Part shown: positions 11,131-16,633 of the stretch, one piece after another | Layout: every line of letters starts with the position of its first letter | How positions within the stretch are numbered: position 1 is the stretch's first letter | Virus record (IMG/VR): IMGVR_UViG_3300013132_004958 | Location: 1 to 38,790 of that record | DNA: 38,790 bases | Direction: 5' to 3' (one strand) | From: a virus | Notes under the pieces: generated by a model | The model's database searches: none | What the model was told of the DNA's origin: nothing | The model's input: only the letters and a program-made list of their open reading frames with translations | Translations under genes and position numbers: made by a program

Positions 11131-11762
11131 ATAAAATTTTTTCCAACTATGTCACTAACATGACGGAAGACAACGTATTAAATGCATCTTCGTGGTTTAA
11201 AGATAAAGTAACAGAGGCTAATAGTAAGGATGAAAAAAGAGAATCGGCATTTAATTCCAAGGTAGTAAATACTGCCAAGCTGATAAGAGATAATAGCACT
11301 AAGGGGGTATCTAGAGTACGTTTAGGACATCTCTATCTTTTTAGATATGACGCAAAGCTAAAACAAGAGCTTCCTTATTATGATATTTTTCCCGTCATTT
11401 TTATTATACAAAGAAAACAAGATGGATTTTTAGGATTAAATTTACACTATCTTCCTTACGAATTTAGAGCATCATTAATGGATTCACTTTATAATTTCGT
11501 GGTAGGCGAGGATGACTTGCAGAGGTTGCGTGCTACTTACAATATTCTAACCTCTACTACTAAACTAAGATTTTTTAGGCCGTGTTTAAAGCACTATCTA
11601 AATACTAATATTAAGTCTAGATTTATACACGTTAATCCAGATGAATGGGATACTGCTCTATTCTTACCGTTACATAAATTTAGAAAAGCTACGGCCCCTC
11701 AGGTTTATAGAGATAGTATAAAGTCAATTAGAAGAGCCTCACATCAAGGAAGAATAATTTAA
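11127..11762 (+). CDS. Conserved T4-like protein of unknown role, possibly DNA end protector (gp2-like)
   Basis: 211 aa, soluble, basic, no signal peptide. The core around residues 65-125 is rich in aromatics: GHLYLFRYDAKLKQELPYYD, PVIFIIQRKQDGFLGLNLHY, LPYEFRASLMDSLY; later RFFRPCLKHYL. I associate this style (FxYDxK...LPYYDxxP) with a protein encoded next to head-completion or tail genes in marine T4-like phages, but I cannot name it surely. In T4, gene 2 (DNA end protector) is beside gene 4, so gp2 is a candidate on position alone. The start has TTGGAGT upstream and overlaps the gp4 stop (ATGA); the stop abuts gp54. Co-transcription with gp4 and gp54 indicates a virion assembly role. Confidence 0.6.
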   Translation: MNKIFSNYVTNMTEDNVLNASSWFKDKVTEANSKDEKRESAFNSKVVNTAKLIRDNSTKGVSRVRLGHLYLFRYDAKLKQELPYYDIFPVIFIIQRKQDGFLGLNLHYLPYEFRASLMDSLYNFVVGEDDLQRLRATYNILTSTTKLRFFRPCLKHYLNTNIKSRFIHVNPDEWDTALFLPLHKFRKATAPQVYRDSIKSIRRASHQGRII

Positions 11763-12670
11763 TGGCAACAGCATCCGATTCAATTAATAGAGTAATATCT
11801 AAGGGTAGAGATGTAGCCGGGGCGGTAGGTGCGTTAACCGATCTGCCTGGTGTGCCTGAAGGAATTAGAAATGCTGTTGGATCTCTTTTTGGTACGGGTA
11901 GAGGTTTGCCACCAGGTCAAAATAGAAGAGACTTAAACAATTTTTTAGGAACCGTTTCAAAGCTTAAAGGATTTACACGGCCGGCTTATTTTTATGTTGA
12001 GATTCAACCTCCTCTTGCATTAAGAGATCAGGCTCAAGAGGCTCGAAACTTAGCTTTTTTATGTGAGTCGGCCAATCTACCAGGCGTGTCTTTCGCCACT
12101 TCAGATATTAGAAGATATGGGTTTGGACCAACAGAAAGAAAACCATATGCGCCTATTTTTGTTGATACAACAATGACTTTTTTTGCTGATGCGTCGGGAA
12201 TGGTGCAAAAATTCTTTTATAGATGGATGAATAGCATTATTCAATATGATGAAATGCCTTGGGGTAATGGAAATCTTGTGAACGGTTTTGCAATGAGTCC
12301 ATTTAAAGTAAATTATAAAGAGCAATACGCAACAGATATTTTAGTTACCACTGTTGACGAAGCTAACAATGATATTATAAATGTAAGGTTTAGAGAGGCG
12401 TTTCCAATTTTTATGGGTGATATTAATCTTGGATGGGGTGATACTGACTCTATTTCTAGATTACCAATTACATTTACTTACTTTAATTGGAAAATAGAAA
12501 AAATAAATGTAGGACAGATTCAAGAAAATAGAGAACCTGGACTTATTCAAAAATTAATAAAGGCAGGAACTGCTATTCAGACTCTTGCTACAATTAAGAA
12601 ACCTAATAATGTTGCGGACATAATTAATGTTGTGGGCAATGCAAAAATTGCACTTGGTGGACTTAGATAA
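11762..12670 (+). CDS. 54: Baseplate tail tube initiator gp54
   Basis: 302 aa (T4 gp54 is 320). After an Ala/Gly-rich N-terminus the tube fold begins at about residue 65 (LKGFTRPAYFYVEIQPP), followed by LAFLCESANLPGVSFATSDI, the sequence type shared by gp54 and tail tube proteins, then FVDTTMTFFADASGMVQKFF and FREAFPIFMGDINLGWGDTD. gp54 caps gp48 and starts tube and sheath polymerisation. AGGAAG lies upstream of the ATG. It is followed 18 nt later by gp26. The T4 48-54 pair is split here: gp48 is on the opposite strand, about 1 kb away. Confidence 0.88.
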   Translation: MATASDSINRVISKGRDVAGAVGALTDLPGVPEGIRNAVGSLFGTGRGLPPGQNRRDLNNFLGTVSKLKGFTRPAYFYVEIQPPLALRDQAQEARNLAFLCESANLPGVSFATSDIRRYGFGPTERKPYAPIFVDTTMTFFADASGMVQKFFYRWMNSIIQYDEMPWGNGNLVNGFAMSPFKVNYKEQYATDILVTTVDEANNDIINVRFREAFPIFMGDINLGWGDTDSISRLPITFTYFNWKIEKINVGQIQENREPGLIQKLIKAGTAIQTLATIKKPNNVADIINVVGNAKIALGGLR

Positions 12671-12688: not shown

Positions 12689-13396
12689 ATGGCTTTGCCA
12701 AAAATTGAACATCCAACGTTTGAATTAGTACTACCTTCTAATAAGAAAAAGATTAGATTCAGACCTTTCCTAGTTAAAGAAGAAAAAATACTTCTTATGG
12801 CTATGACTGGGGAAGATCCTAATGAGATTGCATCGGCGTTAAAACAGGTTATTAATAACTGTATGCTTGATGATGTAAATGTAGAAGAGCTTGCTACTAT
12901 CGACGTTGAGTATCTTTTTATTAAAATAAGAGCAAAATCAGTTAACAATATTATTAAGTTAACTTATAGAGATCTTGAAGATGATAAGCGGTATGATGTT
13001 GAAGTTAATTTGGATGAAGTAGAAGTTAAGTTCAGTGATGAGCATAACAATACTATTATAGTTAATGACAAAATTAAGTTCACTATGAAGTACCCTACTG
13101 CAAACATTTCTCTTAAATTAAAAGAGTCAAATAACGCTGGAGACATTCTTTTTGATATTCTTAAAAACTGCATTGATAAAATTTATGATGGTAATAATGT
13201 TTATAATGCGGGCGACTCCTCTCAAGAAGAACTGGAAGAATTTATTACTAGTTTAGATGTAAAGACGTTTAATCAAGTACAAAAATTCTTTACGACAATG
13301 CCAAAACTTTTTTATGAAATTAAATACACCAATAGCTTAGACAAGGAGAAAACAATCACTTTAGATTCTCTAAATGATTTTTTTACATTGGGCTAA
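12689..13396 (+). CDS. 26: Baseplate hub assembly protein gp26 (upstream frame of a frameshifting pair)
   Basis: 235 aa (T4 gp26 is 208). The N-terminus MALPKIEHPTFELVLPSNKK and IRFRPFLVKEEKILLMA is the gp26 signature of T4-like phages. A strong ribosome binding site (AAGGAG) precedes the ATG. The last codons are GAT TTT TTT ACA TTG GGC TAA, giving a perfect -1 slippery heptamer 10 nt before the stop (next entry). Normal termination yields this 235-residue product; slippage would add about 58 residues resembling gp51. Such short/long pairs are the classic design of tail assembly chaperones in other phages. Confidence 0.9.
   Translation: MALPKIEHPTFELVLPSNKKKIRFRPFLVKEEKILLMAMTGEDPNEIASALKQVINNCMLDDVNVEELATIDVEYLFIKIRAKSVNNIIKLTYRDLEDDKRYDVEVNLDEVEVKFSDEHNNTIIVNDKIKFTMKYPTANISLKLKESNNAGDILFDILKNCIDKIYDGNNVYNAGDSSQEELEEFITSLDVKTFNQVQKFFTTMPKLFYEIKYTNSLDKEKTITLDSLNDFFTLG
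13378..13384 (+). promoter_or_regulatory. Programmed -1 ribosomal frameshift site T TTT TTT
   Basis: In the gp26 frame the heptamer reads T_TTT_TTT, matching X_XXY_YYZ. A -1 slip continues TAC ATT GGG CTA AGT CAT and stays open until TGA at 13561-13563. The -1 frame has no usable start codon before its conserved part. I did not find an obvious strong stem-loop or pseudoknot just downstream by eye. Confidence 0.75.
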
Positions 13397-13563
13397 GTCA
13401 TAATAATTTAAGCAACTACTACCGAGTAATATTTGGTTTAGCCCAGCATCACAAATGGTCGGTTAGTGAAATAGAATCAATGATTCCTTTTGAAAGGGAC
13501 TTATACGTAGAGATGCTTCTTGATTACTTGGAAAGAGAAAAAGAGCGATTAAAAAGTAGATGA
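13384..13563 (+). CDS. gp51-like frameshift extension of gp26 (tail/baseplate hub assembly chaperone)
   Basis: This is the part read in the -1 frame after the slippery site: about 59 residues beginning YIGLSHNNLSNYYRVIFGLA and continuing QHHKWSVSEIESMIPFERDL, ending LLDYLEREKERLKSR. The pattern YYRxxFxLAxHHKWSxxEIE is that of small tail assembly chaperone T-domains and of what marine T4-like phages carry after gp26, where T4 has gp51. There is no ATG, GTG or TTG with a ribosome binding site before this motif; the first ATG lies after the HHKWS core. The stop overlaps the next gene's ATG (ATGA). I read it as a gp26-gp51 fusion made by frameshifting. The alternative is reinitiation at a non-standard codon. 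Confidence 0.72.
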   Translation, partial: YIGLSHNNLSNYYRVIFGLAQHHKWSVSEIESMIPFERDLYVEMLLDYLEREKERLKSR

Positions 13564-14819
13564 TAGGGGCACTAACTCAAGAACAGGCAAATGAAGTAAC
13601 TGGCGCTGCGGTAAAGGGCGCCGGTTTTTTTCTTGCCGTTTCCCCTGCACTTAAAGCAATATTAAGCAGTGTAAACGAACTTAATCAAACGTCGGCAAAG
13701 GTGGCCGAACTTGTATCCTCTTACTTTGACGTAAAGATTACGCCAGCCCAGCAGCCTACTGCTAAAGTAGAAGAAAAAGAAGGCATTAGTTCTATAGCCG
13801 GTAGAACAAAAGAGCGTGCATTTGATCTAGCAAAGTTAGCTTTAATCATACCACTTTTATTTAATAAGGATGCTAGAGAGTATCTTGCCTCATTCCTTCA
13901 AGGTTTGTTTGGTGCAGAAACTATGACAGGGTTTAACACCGGTCTTAAAATAGTAGGAGGTATTCTTGTAGGAGTATTCGCTTACAAACTATTTAAACAA
14001 GTAGCAGATACCTTTACAGCATTTAAGCGTCTTTCCCAGCTGGTTGGAACTTTATTTGTATTATCAGAAGCTGCTGCAAACTCAGCAGCAGATGAAAAAG
14101 AAGAGCTGGAAAAGAAAAGACAAAAAGACAAAGCTAGAAGAAGAAAAGCTAGACAGGCTAAACGTAAACGTTTACAAAGAATAAAAAAATTAAAAGGTGT
14201 GGTAAGTAAGTTTAAGTTTGCCGGTCCTTTCGGTATTGTTGCTGGAATCATAGTGGGTGTTGGTGTTGGTACTATGATAGATTTAGTAACAGGTAGTGAA
14301 GAAAAAGCTGAAGAGGAGGAAGAGAAAGCGGAAGAATCTGATGAAGATCCTCCAGAAGTATCTGATGAAATTGATACTTCCAACTTATTTGAAATAATAA
14401 AGAAAAACGCAATTGAAAATTTAACACTCGGTCTTATATCAACTGAAACTATTGAAAATACTAAGAAAGTATTTAAGGGGGACGAAAAGACAATTGCGCA
14501 AAACAGGGCTGCTATTTCTGGAATGAGTTCTGGAGCAGGGGAGTTTGGAGAGTCGTCTGGTGGCGGAGGTGGTTTGGAGCCTGATCTTGCAGCACCTAAA
14601 CCCGCTGCAGCACCTCCGGCTGCGGCAAAAGAGGAATCAAAGCCCCCTGAACAACAAGCACCTATAAGTGCCCCGGAGCCTTCGCCAACACCTGCTGGAG
14701 ATAAAGTCAACGAGACCTCTGAAGAAGTTGCGTCAGAAAAGAAACGTCAAGCCGCTACTGCAACCAACGTAACGGTCAATAATATAGATAATAGTATTCT
14801 AGTTAAGAAAGCAGCATAA
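13560..14819 (+). CDS. Membrane-active tail/structural protein of unknown function
   Basis: 419 aa, not recognised by name. Hydrophobic helices lie at about residues 16-40, 96-107, 128-146, 160-172 and 222-244 (GIVAGIIVGVGVGTMIDLV). Between the last two is a very basic segment (KARRRKARQAKRKRLQRIKK near residues 191-210), and afterwards a run of Glu/Asp and a Pro/Ala-rich tail ending NVTVNNIDNSILVKKAA. The tail motif VNNIDNS resembles VVNNTFDNSR in the next protein, suggesting a shared partner. It sits between gp26/51 and a tape-measure-like gene, where T4 has 27-28-29, so a tail interior or DNA-ejection channel role is plausible. The ATG overlaps the gp51-like stop; the end overlaps the next ATG (TAATG). 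Confidence 0.7.
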   Translation: MIGALTQEQANEVTGAAVKGAGFFLAVSPALKAILSSVNELNQTSAKVAELVSSYFDVKITPAQQPTAKVEEKEGISSIAGRTKERAFDLAKLALIIPLLFNKDAREYLASFLQGLFGAETMTGFNTGLKIVGGILVGVFAYKLFKQVADTFTAFKRLSQLVGTLFVLSEAAANSAADEKEELEKKRQKDKARRRKARQAKRKRLQRIKKLKGVVSKFKFAGPFGIVAGIIVGVGVGTMIDLVTGSEEKAEEEEEKAEESDEDPPEVSDEIDTSNLFEIIKKNAIENLTLGLISTETIENTKKVFKGDEKTIAQNRAAISGMSSGAGEFGESSGGGGGLEPDLAAPKPAAAPPAAAKEESKPPEQQAPISAPEPSPTPAGDKVNETSEEVASEKKRQAATATNVTVNNIDNSILVKKAA

Positions 14820-16633
14820 TGGCTGAAGAAAACAAACTACTTTCATCAGAAGAAATACAGCAATTAAAATCTAAAGGCTACGAAAGTAGAGGACTAGGCT
14901 TTGCTAAAGATAATAAATTTGTTTCAAATAAAGAGATAGATGATATTGTTGCTCAAATTAGAGAAACAAGCCCTTTTAAACTTTTACAAAAAAGAGTTGA
15001 TAAGGTAGAAAGTGATTTGCTAGACGTGTATGAATATGTTACTGATCCAAAAAATGATATTGAAAGAAAAATCTTATCGTCTAAAGGAGCAGAAAAAGAA
15101 GTATTAGCAAGCCTTTCGTCTATTAATAATAGCATTATTGGTGTAGGTAAAAGTTTTAAGACTCTAGAGACAATATTTGCTGGCCTCATAGCTAATAGAA
15201 AAGCTGAAGAATATAAAACTGAAGAAACAGCGCAGGAAAAAGGCGTACTTAAACCTACTACGAGAAGAGAGCAAGTAAGAGAAAGCGGTGATTCTTTTTC
15301 AAGTTTATTAAAAAGCTTTTTCTTAAACCCGGCTGTTATAGCAGCATTTTCAGGCTTAGTTTATTTACTTTTACCTAAAGATGTTAAAGAAAAAATAAAT
15401 TCTTTCTTCTCTGGTTTCTTAAAAGGGCTGACAGACAATACAACAGAATTGACTGGCTTTCAAAAAGCACTACTTGCATCAGCGGCCGCCCTTGGTACAT
15501 TTTTAGGTGCTAAGGCGCTTGAAAAAATCTTTGATGCTGTATCTACTGTAGTTTCTCTTATTAATAAAGCAAAGACTACCTTTGGTGCTTTAAGGAAAAA
15601 GGGGCTTAAAGGATTAGCTGTTGGAGCTGCTGCTGTAGGAGGGGCTGCAGCTGCAGGAGTCGCAATTGCAAGCGCGGTGGGAGGTGAAGAAAAGCCTGAG
15701 CCTGAAGGAAAGCCAAGTCCAGCAGGGTCAGCCCCGCCCCCAACCCCTTCTCCATCAGCAGGAGGTGCTGCAGCTGGACCTGCTGCTACACCTGATACCA
15801 AACCCCCTGTATCTGGATCTGCTCAACCAACGCTGCCCCCTGGTAGTAAAGAAGATCCAATGAATGCTGATTTAAACGCTTACGTTAAGAAAAAAGATTC
15901 TGGAGTAGACCTGGAAGGGTTAAATCCTAATCTTAAAAAACGTCTTGCAGGAATGGCAAAAGAATATAACGAAAAGACTGGTAAAAAAATACAGATTAAT
16001 TCAGCGTTTAGAGACCCAAAAGAACAGGCTGAACTTTTTGCTAAGATTGGTCCTCCAAACGCAGCTCCTCCTGGAAAAAGTAAGCACGAAGTAGGAACAG
16101 CTTTTGATATGAACAGTGGTGATGCGGCTACTGCAATTCAATTAGGTTTGTTTAGTAAATATGGATTTACTAGACCTATTGCAAAAGAAACATGGCACGT
16201 TGAACCTGTAGAAAATAGAGGAGGTTCTTTCCCGGACAATCCTGTTTCTCCTGGAAGGCCAGTAATTGTTGCATCTGCTGTGGGTGCTGTCGATCCTGGA
16301 TCGGGTAAAAAGGTACCTGAAACGTTTATTAAGCCAAAAATTGCTGCTACAGCTGCTGCAGCACCAGTAGCAGATATTAACGAATTAGAGCCTGCTTCAA
16401 CCTCGTTGGAGCCTTCCAGTGCTTCAAAAGGAACATCAGTCATGTCTTCCTCCGAAGATATAGAGTCTATGGGAGTTGGAGGTGGCCGAGGCGCTGTGGT
16501 TAATAATACATTTGATAATTCTAGACAATTAGCCGAAAAGGAAGGGGCTGATGCACCCCTTCCAATTCCTTCTCCTGTAGCTAACAGAGGTTCTTTAAGT
16601 AGAGGTACTAAACATAGTACCGCTTACGCTTAA
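14819..16633 (+). CDS. Tape-measure-like tail protein with M15 (VanY-type) peptidase domain
   Basis: 604 aa, the length of T4 tape measure gp29 (590). Residues 1-165 are helical and charged. Hydrophobic segments follow at 166-186 (FLNPAVIAAFSGLVYLLLP), about 215-235 and 262-290 (Ala/Gly-rich). A Pro/Ala linker (290-345) leads to an M15 D,D-peptidase domain at about 370-465: SAFRDPKEQ near 395, SKHEVGTAFD near 421-431 (the family SxHxxGxAxD zinc motif) and WHVEP near 459. It would cut peptidoglycan peptide cross-links during injection. This fits with gp5 having no lysozyme. The stop meets the gp32 stop tail-to-tail with no gap. Tape-measure identity is inferred from size, position and hydrophobicity. 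Confidence 0.78.
   Translation: MAEENKLLSSEEIQQLKSKGYESRGLGFAKDNKFVSNKEIDDIVAQIRETSPFKLLQKRVDKVESDLLDVYEYVTDPKNDIERKILSSKGAEKEVLASLSSINNSIIGVGKSFKTLETIFAGLIANRKAEEYKTEETAQEKGVLKPTTRREQVRESGDSFSSLLKSFFLNPAVIAAFSGLVYLLLPKDVKEKINSFFSGFLKGLTDNTTELTGFQKALLASAAALGTFLGAKALEKIFDAVSTVVSLINKAKTTFGALRKKGLKGLAVGAAAVGGAAAAGVAIASAVGGEEKPEPEGKPSPAGSAPPPTPSPSAGGAAAGPAATPDTKPPVSGSAQPTLPPGSKEDPMNADLNAYVKKKDSGVDLEGLNPNLKKRLAGMAKEYNEKTGKKIQINSAFRDPKEQAELFAKIGPPNAAPPGKSKHEVGTAFDMNSGDAATAIQLGLFSKYGFTRPIAKETWHVEPVENRGGSFPDNPVSPGRPVIVASAVGAVDPGSGKKVPETFIKPKIAATAAAAPVADINELEPASTSLEPSSASKGTSVMSSSEDIESMGVGGGRGAVVNNTFDNSRQLAEKEGADAPLPIPSPVANRGSLSRGTKHSTAYA
16536..16563 (-). terminator. Rho-independent terminator for gp32, embedded in the opposite-strand tail gene
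   Basis: The minus strand reads GGAAGGGG, an 8-nt loop, CCCCTTCC, then TTTT. The perfect 8-bp GC-rich stem lies about 70 nt past the gp32 stop, inside the coding sequence of the convergent peptidase gene. The plus-strand side lacks a T-run, so it should act on the gp32 transcript only. Confidence 0.75.

Follow-up and report, generated by a model that had tools for sequence, protein, structure and literature searches.

A probable -1 frameshift joining gp26 to a gp51-type domain in an IMG/VR virus record and its relatives

The IMG/VR virus record IMGVR_UViG_3300013132_004958 was analysed over positions 1 to 38,790, an AT-rich stretch of 38,790 bases referred to here as the window. The gp26 gene of the window, together with the open frame overlapping its end, is very probably a tail assembly chaperone (TAC) gene pair of the G/GT type, in which a -1 ribosomal frameshift would yield a gp26-gp51 fusion (TAC-NC) in addition to the short product (TAC-N). 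The sequence evidence for frameshifting is strong: the slippery site is conserved, the -1 frame is open and conserved even ahead of its first start, and the window's clade shares a stem downstream of the site. A structural model of gp26 that resembles a TAC lends further support. That slippage occurs, its frequency, and the binding partners of both proteins are points that we infer. As far as can be seen from papers citing the work, a frameshifted TAC pair in T4-like phages was already published in 2022, and the window is a fresh example with added detail. Coordinates of the features are given in Table 1.

Slippery site and the -1 frame

The 3' end of gp26 reads GAT TTT TTT ACA TTG GGC TAA. 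An earlier, sequence-only reading of the window had pointed to a perfect slippery heptamer, T_TTT_TTT, in the gp26 frame, and this was recovered; the zero-frame stop follows it by 9 nt and not by 10 nt as had been stated. The -1 frame is limited upstream by a TGA (13375-13377) that abuts the T7 run and, as claimed, is open through the gp26 stop without a usable start, ending at the TGA at 13561-13563. The first ATG, GTG or TTG, an ATG at 13480, comes only after about 34 codons, within the conserved domain, and no Shine-Dalgarno (SD) sequence was found at this ATG in the window sequence. The gp51-like nature of the encoded domain was borne out by a match of the -1 peptide to phrog_634, "baseplate hub assembly catalyst" (6.8e-23). 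A search with NCBIfam profiles gave no match at this locus. Runs of T7 or longer occur 23 times on the + strand of the window, and in-frame TTTTTTN heptamers occur 15 times in the 11,580 codons of its longer open reading frames (ORFs). Since such runs are frequent in the AT-rich window, the weight of the site comes from its conserved place and not from the run itself.

Relatives were collected from IMG/VR scans and cultured phage isolates by similarity of the gp26 protein, not by the slippery site, which gave 116 loci including the window. An alignment of gp26 loci had been proposed as a check on the run and its frame, and both were conserved. An in-frame U_UUU_UUN close to the gp26 stop was observed in 112 of the 116 loci. 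The -1 peptides are distinct in 102 of these 112, and the last base of the heptamer in the 102 was U (47), C (52), A (2) or G (1). The loci are related and hence not independent trials, and gp26 identity to the window falls to about 22%. Carriers of U_UUU_UUN include cyanophages, pf16, Aeh1, nt-1, YB07 and AF3, and also S-PM2 and P-SSM4. The zero-frame stop of the relatives lies 0-8 codons past the heptamer, most commonly 1 or 3. Six loci (L072, L075, L081, L094, L103 and L105) have this stop 8 codons past the heptamer, with the -1 frame unaltered.

An interrupted frame could also come from gene decay in this one contig, or from a frameshift introduced during sequencing or assembly, and with some technologies homopolymer runs are prone to such errors. 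However, the same layout was found in the 102 distinct loci, including the reference phages S-PM2, P-SSM4, Aeh1 and nt-1, and the same site was present in independent contigs with 39-66% protein identity. Because independent contigs share the site, an error of this kind is excluded, and its probability was considered negligible.

Past the slip, 0 stops were counted in 6261 codons of the -1 frame, a zero that holds by construction up to the frame's own end, against 636 and 578 when the same stretch was read in the other frames; the position of that end is constant, at 47-83 codons. Over the first 19 codons, variation was greatest at the third position of the -1 frame, both in the window's clade and among the U_UUU_UUC loci. 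Judged from this codon pattern, the -1 extension is under coding selection without a start of its own.

The locus could alternatively encode two separate proteins, the gp51 frame being translated by termination-reinitiation at a start overlapping or just past the gp26 stop. Many isolates are annotated as two genes, several have UAAUG or UGAUG, and the overlapping or nearby ATG found in some relatives could also start the gp51 frame, a point that counts against frameshifting. In the window, however, the late position of the first start and the lack of an SD sequence do not fit reinitiation. A start codon is absent over 19-34 codons of the -1 frame in the window and several relatives. Across the relatives the first start is scattered from 3 to 34 codons in, yet conservation of the -1 peptide sets in at the slip, ahead of any start codon, so that the conserved N-terminal stretch is not explained by any common start. 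Reinitiation also has no need of the heptamer, yet the heptamer is nearly invariant. Translation of two separate proteins is accordingly regarded as improbable at this locus.

Relatives with no slippery run and a clear separate start had been named beforehand as the observation that would speak against frameshifting. The relatives do not generally look like this, but four distant ones do, namely K475, BX-1, Cygsa01 and D533 (L037, L039, L040 and L044), three Vibrio phages and one Pseudomonas phage, with BX-1 annotated as Ackermannviridae. In these four, U_UUU_UUN is missing and the gp26 stop lies in a UAAUG, as reinitiation would predict. This suggests a third arrangement, that of split genes, with the gp51 domain separately translated by reinitiation. 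A wider scan for heptamer-less relatives gave just two further loci, and the variant rests on four genomes. Separately, the fusion query matched uninterrupted across the frameshift point in Vibrio phage vB_VmeM-32 (H107, 90409-91218), which may have an in-frame fused gene.

Candidate stimulators of frameshifting

A GGAGGG-like element at -15 to -10 from the heptamer was observed in 27 of the 52 U_UUU_UUC loci. The Glu codon at this SD-like element was GAG in 27 of 32 U_UUU_UUC loci, compared to 343 of 1205 (28%) elsewhere in the same genes (p 1e-10), and the Leu codon before that Glu likewise favoured G (p 9e-6). No SD-like stimulator was found in the window's clade; GGAGG or GAGGG at most 22 nt upstream occurred in 7 of 47 U7 loci compared to 27 of 52 U6C loci.

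RNA folding downstream of the site had been suggested in the sequence-only reading as a way to a stimulator, and the outcome differed between the clade and the window itself. For the clade, the 60 nt downstream were more stably folded than shuffled sequence (mean z -2.97 over 31 loci). A 9-pair stem, with alignment columns 15-23 paired to 62-70 after a spacer of 7 nt, was identified in 35 loci of the clade. The stem cells were paired in 92.4%, compared to 21-36% in slid controls, and the covariation score exceeded all 500 shuffles. RNAalifold recovered 8 of the 9 pairs, 3 of the 8 being changed on both sides. Several observations weigh against a stem-assisted slip. The window's own stem, at -14.6 kcal/mol, reached a z of just -1.24 against shuffles and is shifted in register from the clade consensus, and the close relative L005 barely folds (-4.2). 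Furthermore, both stem arms are coding, so that the pairing may partly follow from the codons. As evidence for a stimulator in the window's clade, the downstream stem is good without being decisive.

The stimulator may have been exchanged within one homologous gene: an upstream SD-like GGAGGG would often serve the U_UUU_UUC loci, many of them from cyanophages, whereas U_UUU_UUU would be combined with a downstream stem in the window's clade. Elsewhere, frameshifting would have been dropped: in T-even phages by way of a separate full-length gene 51, and in the distant Vibrio and Pseudomonas phages by way of a stop-start overlap. The chances for and against this exchange are judged to be even.

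The elements discussed above also bear on transcriptional slippage, in which an extra U would be put into the transcript by RNA polymerase at the T7 run, so that ribosomes reach the -1 frame by ordinary decoding. The run of the window does comprise 7 T. However, 52 of the 102 distinct relatives hold just TTTTTTC, and six T is short for polymerase slippage. The pattern, moreover, matches the tandem-slippage heptamer exactly, and the SD-like element and the stem work at the level of the ribosome. Transcriptional slippage is still less probable than reinitiation. Reinitiation, transcriptional slippage and assembly error were all rejected for this locus.

Chaperone fold, T4 gp51 and known systems

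An AlphaFold2 model of gp26 was obtained with a pLDDT (predicted local distance difference test) of 86, using 40 sequences. Foldseek alone gave nothing significant with this model, and the HK97 TAC stood out in a second structural comparison only. There, gp26 residues 1-87 matched 2ob9, the HK97 TAC, with a Z of 7.9 (root-mean-square deviation 4.1 over 84 residues) and YqbN (3klu) with a Z of 7.2, values under 8 that are modest if taken alone; the remaining matches were 5ir0 (Z 5.1) and then 2.7 or less. YqbN is an XkdN-type tail chaperone, and 2ob9 bears the HK97 tail assembly chaperone in its title. With two chaperone-type matches on top, well clear of the rest, the reading of residues 1-87 as TAC-N is supported, and the N-terminal domain of gp26 is predicted from the model to have the TAC-N fold. 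A fold search with a model of the T4-type gp51 gave no informative match.

According to the proposed mechanism, most ribosomes would translate gp26 up to its TAA stop (13394). On U_UUU_UUU, with the P and A sites both occupied by tRNA-Phe, a minority would slip back by one base, aided in the window's clade by the stem about 7 nt downstream. The slipped ribosomes would bypass the stop and append the gp51-type domain of about 60 residues. If the two products behave like lambda G and GT, the tape measure or hub protein may be coated by the short form, and the long form may link the resulting complex with subunits of the tail tube. For long-tailed phages, the conserved -1 frameshift (lambda gpG/gpGT) was reportedly described by Xu, Hendrix and Duda in 2004. 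As proposed for the window, the long form of lambda adds a C-terminal domain. The slippery site of lambda is G_GGA_AAG, compared to U_UUU_UUN here, and the two systems are likened by layout, not by sequence.

The TAC genes of T4-like phages are said to have been identified by Vladimirov, Gautam and Davidson in Virology in 2022 (566:9-15, doi 10.1016/j.virol.2021.11.003), with frameshifting reportedly conserved in several T4-like groups and T4 using genes 26 and 51. Judged from citing papers, the TAC-N/TAC-NC genes of that work belong to the same gene families as those of the window. Of the citing papers, one states that frameshifting is replaced in some T4-like phages by two genes, one short and one long (PRFect, PMC10885494), and another that the TAC-N genes of T4-like phages are known to contain poly-T signals for a -1 shift (PMC12846349). 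The TAC locus of Vandenendeviridae and Andersonviridae (PMC12846349) resembles the window in having a -1 frameshift in a myophage TAC gene at a T-rich site; it differs in its GTTTTT motif and in belonging to other phage families, and was compared with gp26 by description. The link between T4 hub assembly and the G/GT scheme drawn in the sequence-only reading is supported by the TAC-like model and by the site, but it is not new, as the citing papers of the 2022 work indicate.

T4 gp26 and gp51 are hub assembly chaperones (PMC3004832). They had been described beforehand as separate genes, which holds, and the two lie on opposite strands; gp51 is not, however, unrelated to gp26. T4 gp51 matched PF12322 (3.9e-52, residues 1-201) and phrog_634 (1.2e-23, residues 147-246), and a profile made from frameshift fusions alone found T4 gp51 at 3.4e-12 when searched against a set of six sequences. 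By these matches T4 gp51 is a full-length homologue of the whole fusion, with a gp26-like part and the same C-terminal domain. As in the window, T4 gp26 ends at Phe-Phe (KEFFELL), but the codons in T4, and in T-even relatives sharing that ending, are TTC TTT, which breaks the slippery site. With a separate full-length gene 51 present, the slippery site is gone in the T-even phages. T4 gene 26 (L029, 2803-3429) also matched phrog_1140, the family of the baseplate hub distal subunit gp28, but weakly (9e-4), and gp28 is possibly a further relative.

Cyanophage gp51 was reported to lack the first approximately 200 residues and to have about 20% of the normal length, and gp51 was reported as missing in Aeh1 (Sullivan et al. 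2010, PMC3037559). In Aeromonas phage Aeh1 (L033, 2244-2426), U_UUU_UUC was found here to be followed by an open -1 frame that encodes gp51 and is unannotated. Cyanophage gp51 would be short, and Aeh1 gp51 "missing", because the first part is gp26 and the rest is reached by frameshifting. The 102 distinct loci support gp26 and gp51, the hub chaperones of T4-like phages, as the short and long forms of one TAC; in addition, candidate stimulators are supplied and these annotation gaps are explained.

Features of the locus and neighbouring genes

Table 1. Positions of the chaperone locus and its adjoining genes in the window
Feature	Position	Strand	Remarks
Tail-tube-like gene	11762..12670	+	Directly upstream of the chaperone gene; phrog_45 tail tube 4.7e-31, PF23849 3.4e-11
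gp26 / TAC-N, zero-frame product	12689..13396	+	235 residues; PF12322 2.9e-59, phrog_150 3.7e-64
Slippery heptamer U_UUU_UUU (T7 run)	13378..13384	+	Zero-frame reading GAT TTT TTT
Putative -1 extension, gp51-type domain (TAC-C)	13378..13563	+	Begins FFYIGLSHNNLSNYYRVIFGLAQHHKWS; fusion TAC-NC of 291 residues
5' arm of clade stem (columns 15-23)	13392..13400	+	7 nt past heptamer; shifted register of the window, 13388-13396
TAA, zero-frame stop	13394..13396	+	9 nt past T7 run; end of short product
3' arm of clade stem (columns 62-70)	13439..13447	+	Shifted register of the window, 13438-13446
Next gene, candidate tape measure or hub gene	13560..14819	+	419 residues; ATGA start overlaps -1 frame stop

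The next ORF starts -8 to +2 nt from the -1 stop in 54 of 101 relatives, so the frameshift may deliver ribosomes to the next gene. No similarity to T4 gp29 was found among the downstream ORFs. An ORF of 604 residues at 14819-16633 contains a VanY-type peptidase domain (PF02557, 2.7e-8), the part by which it also matches a tape measure profile (phrog_16823, 2.3e-8); it is possibly a tape measure protein with a cell-wall enzyme.
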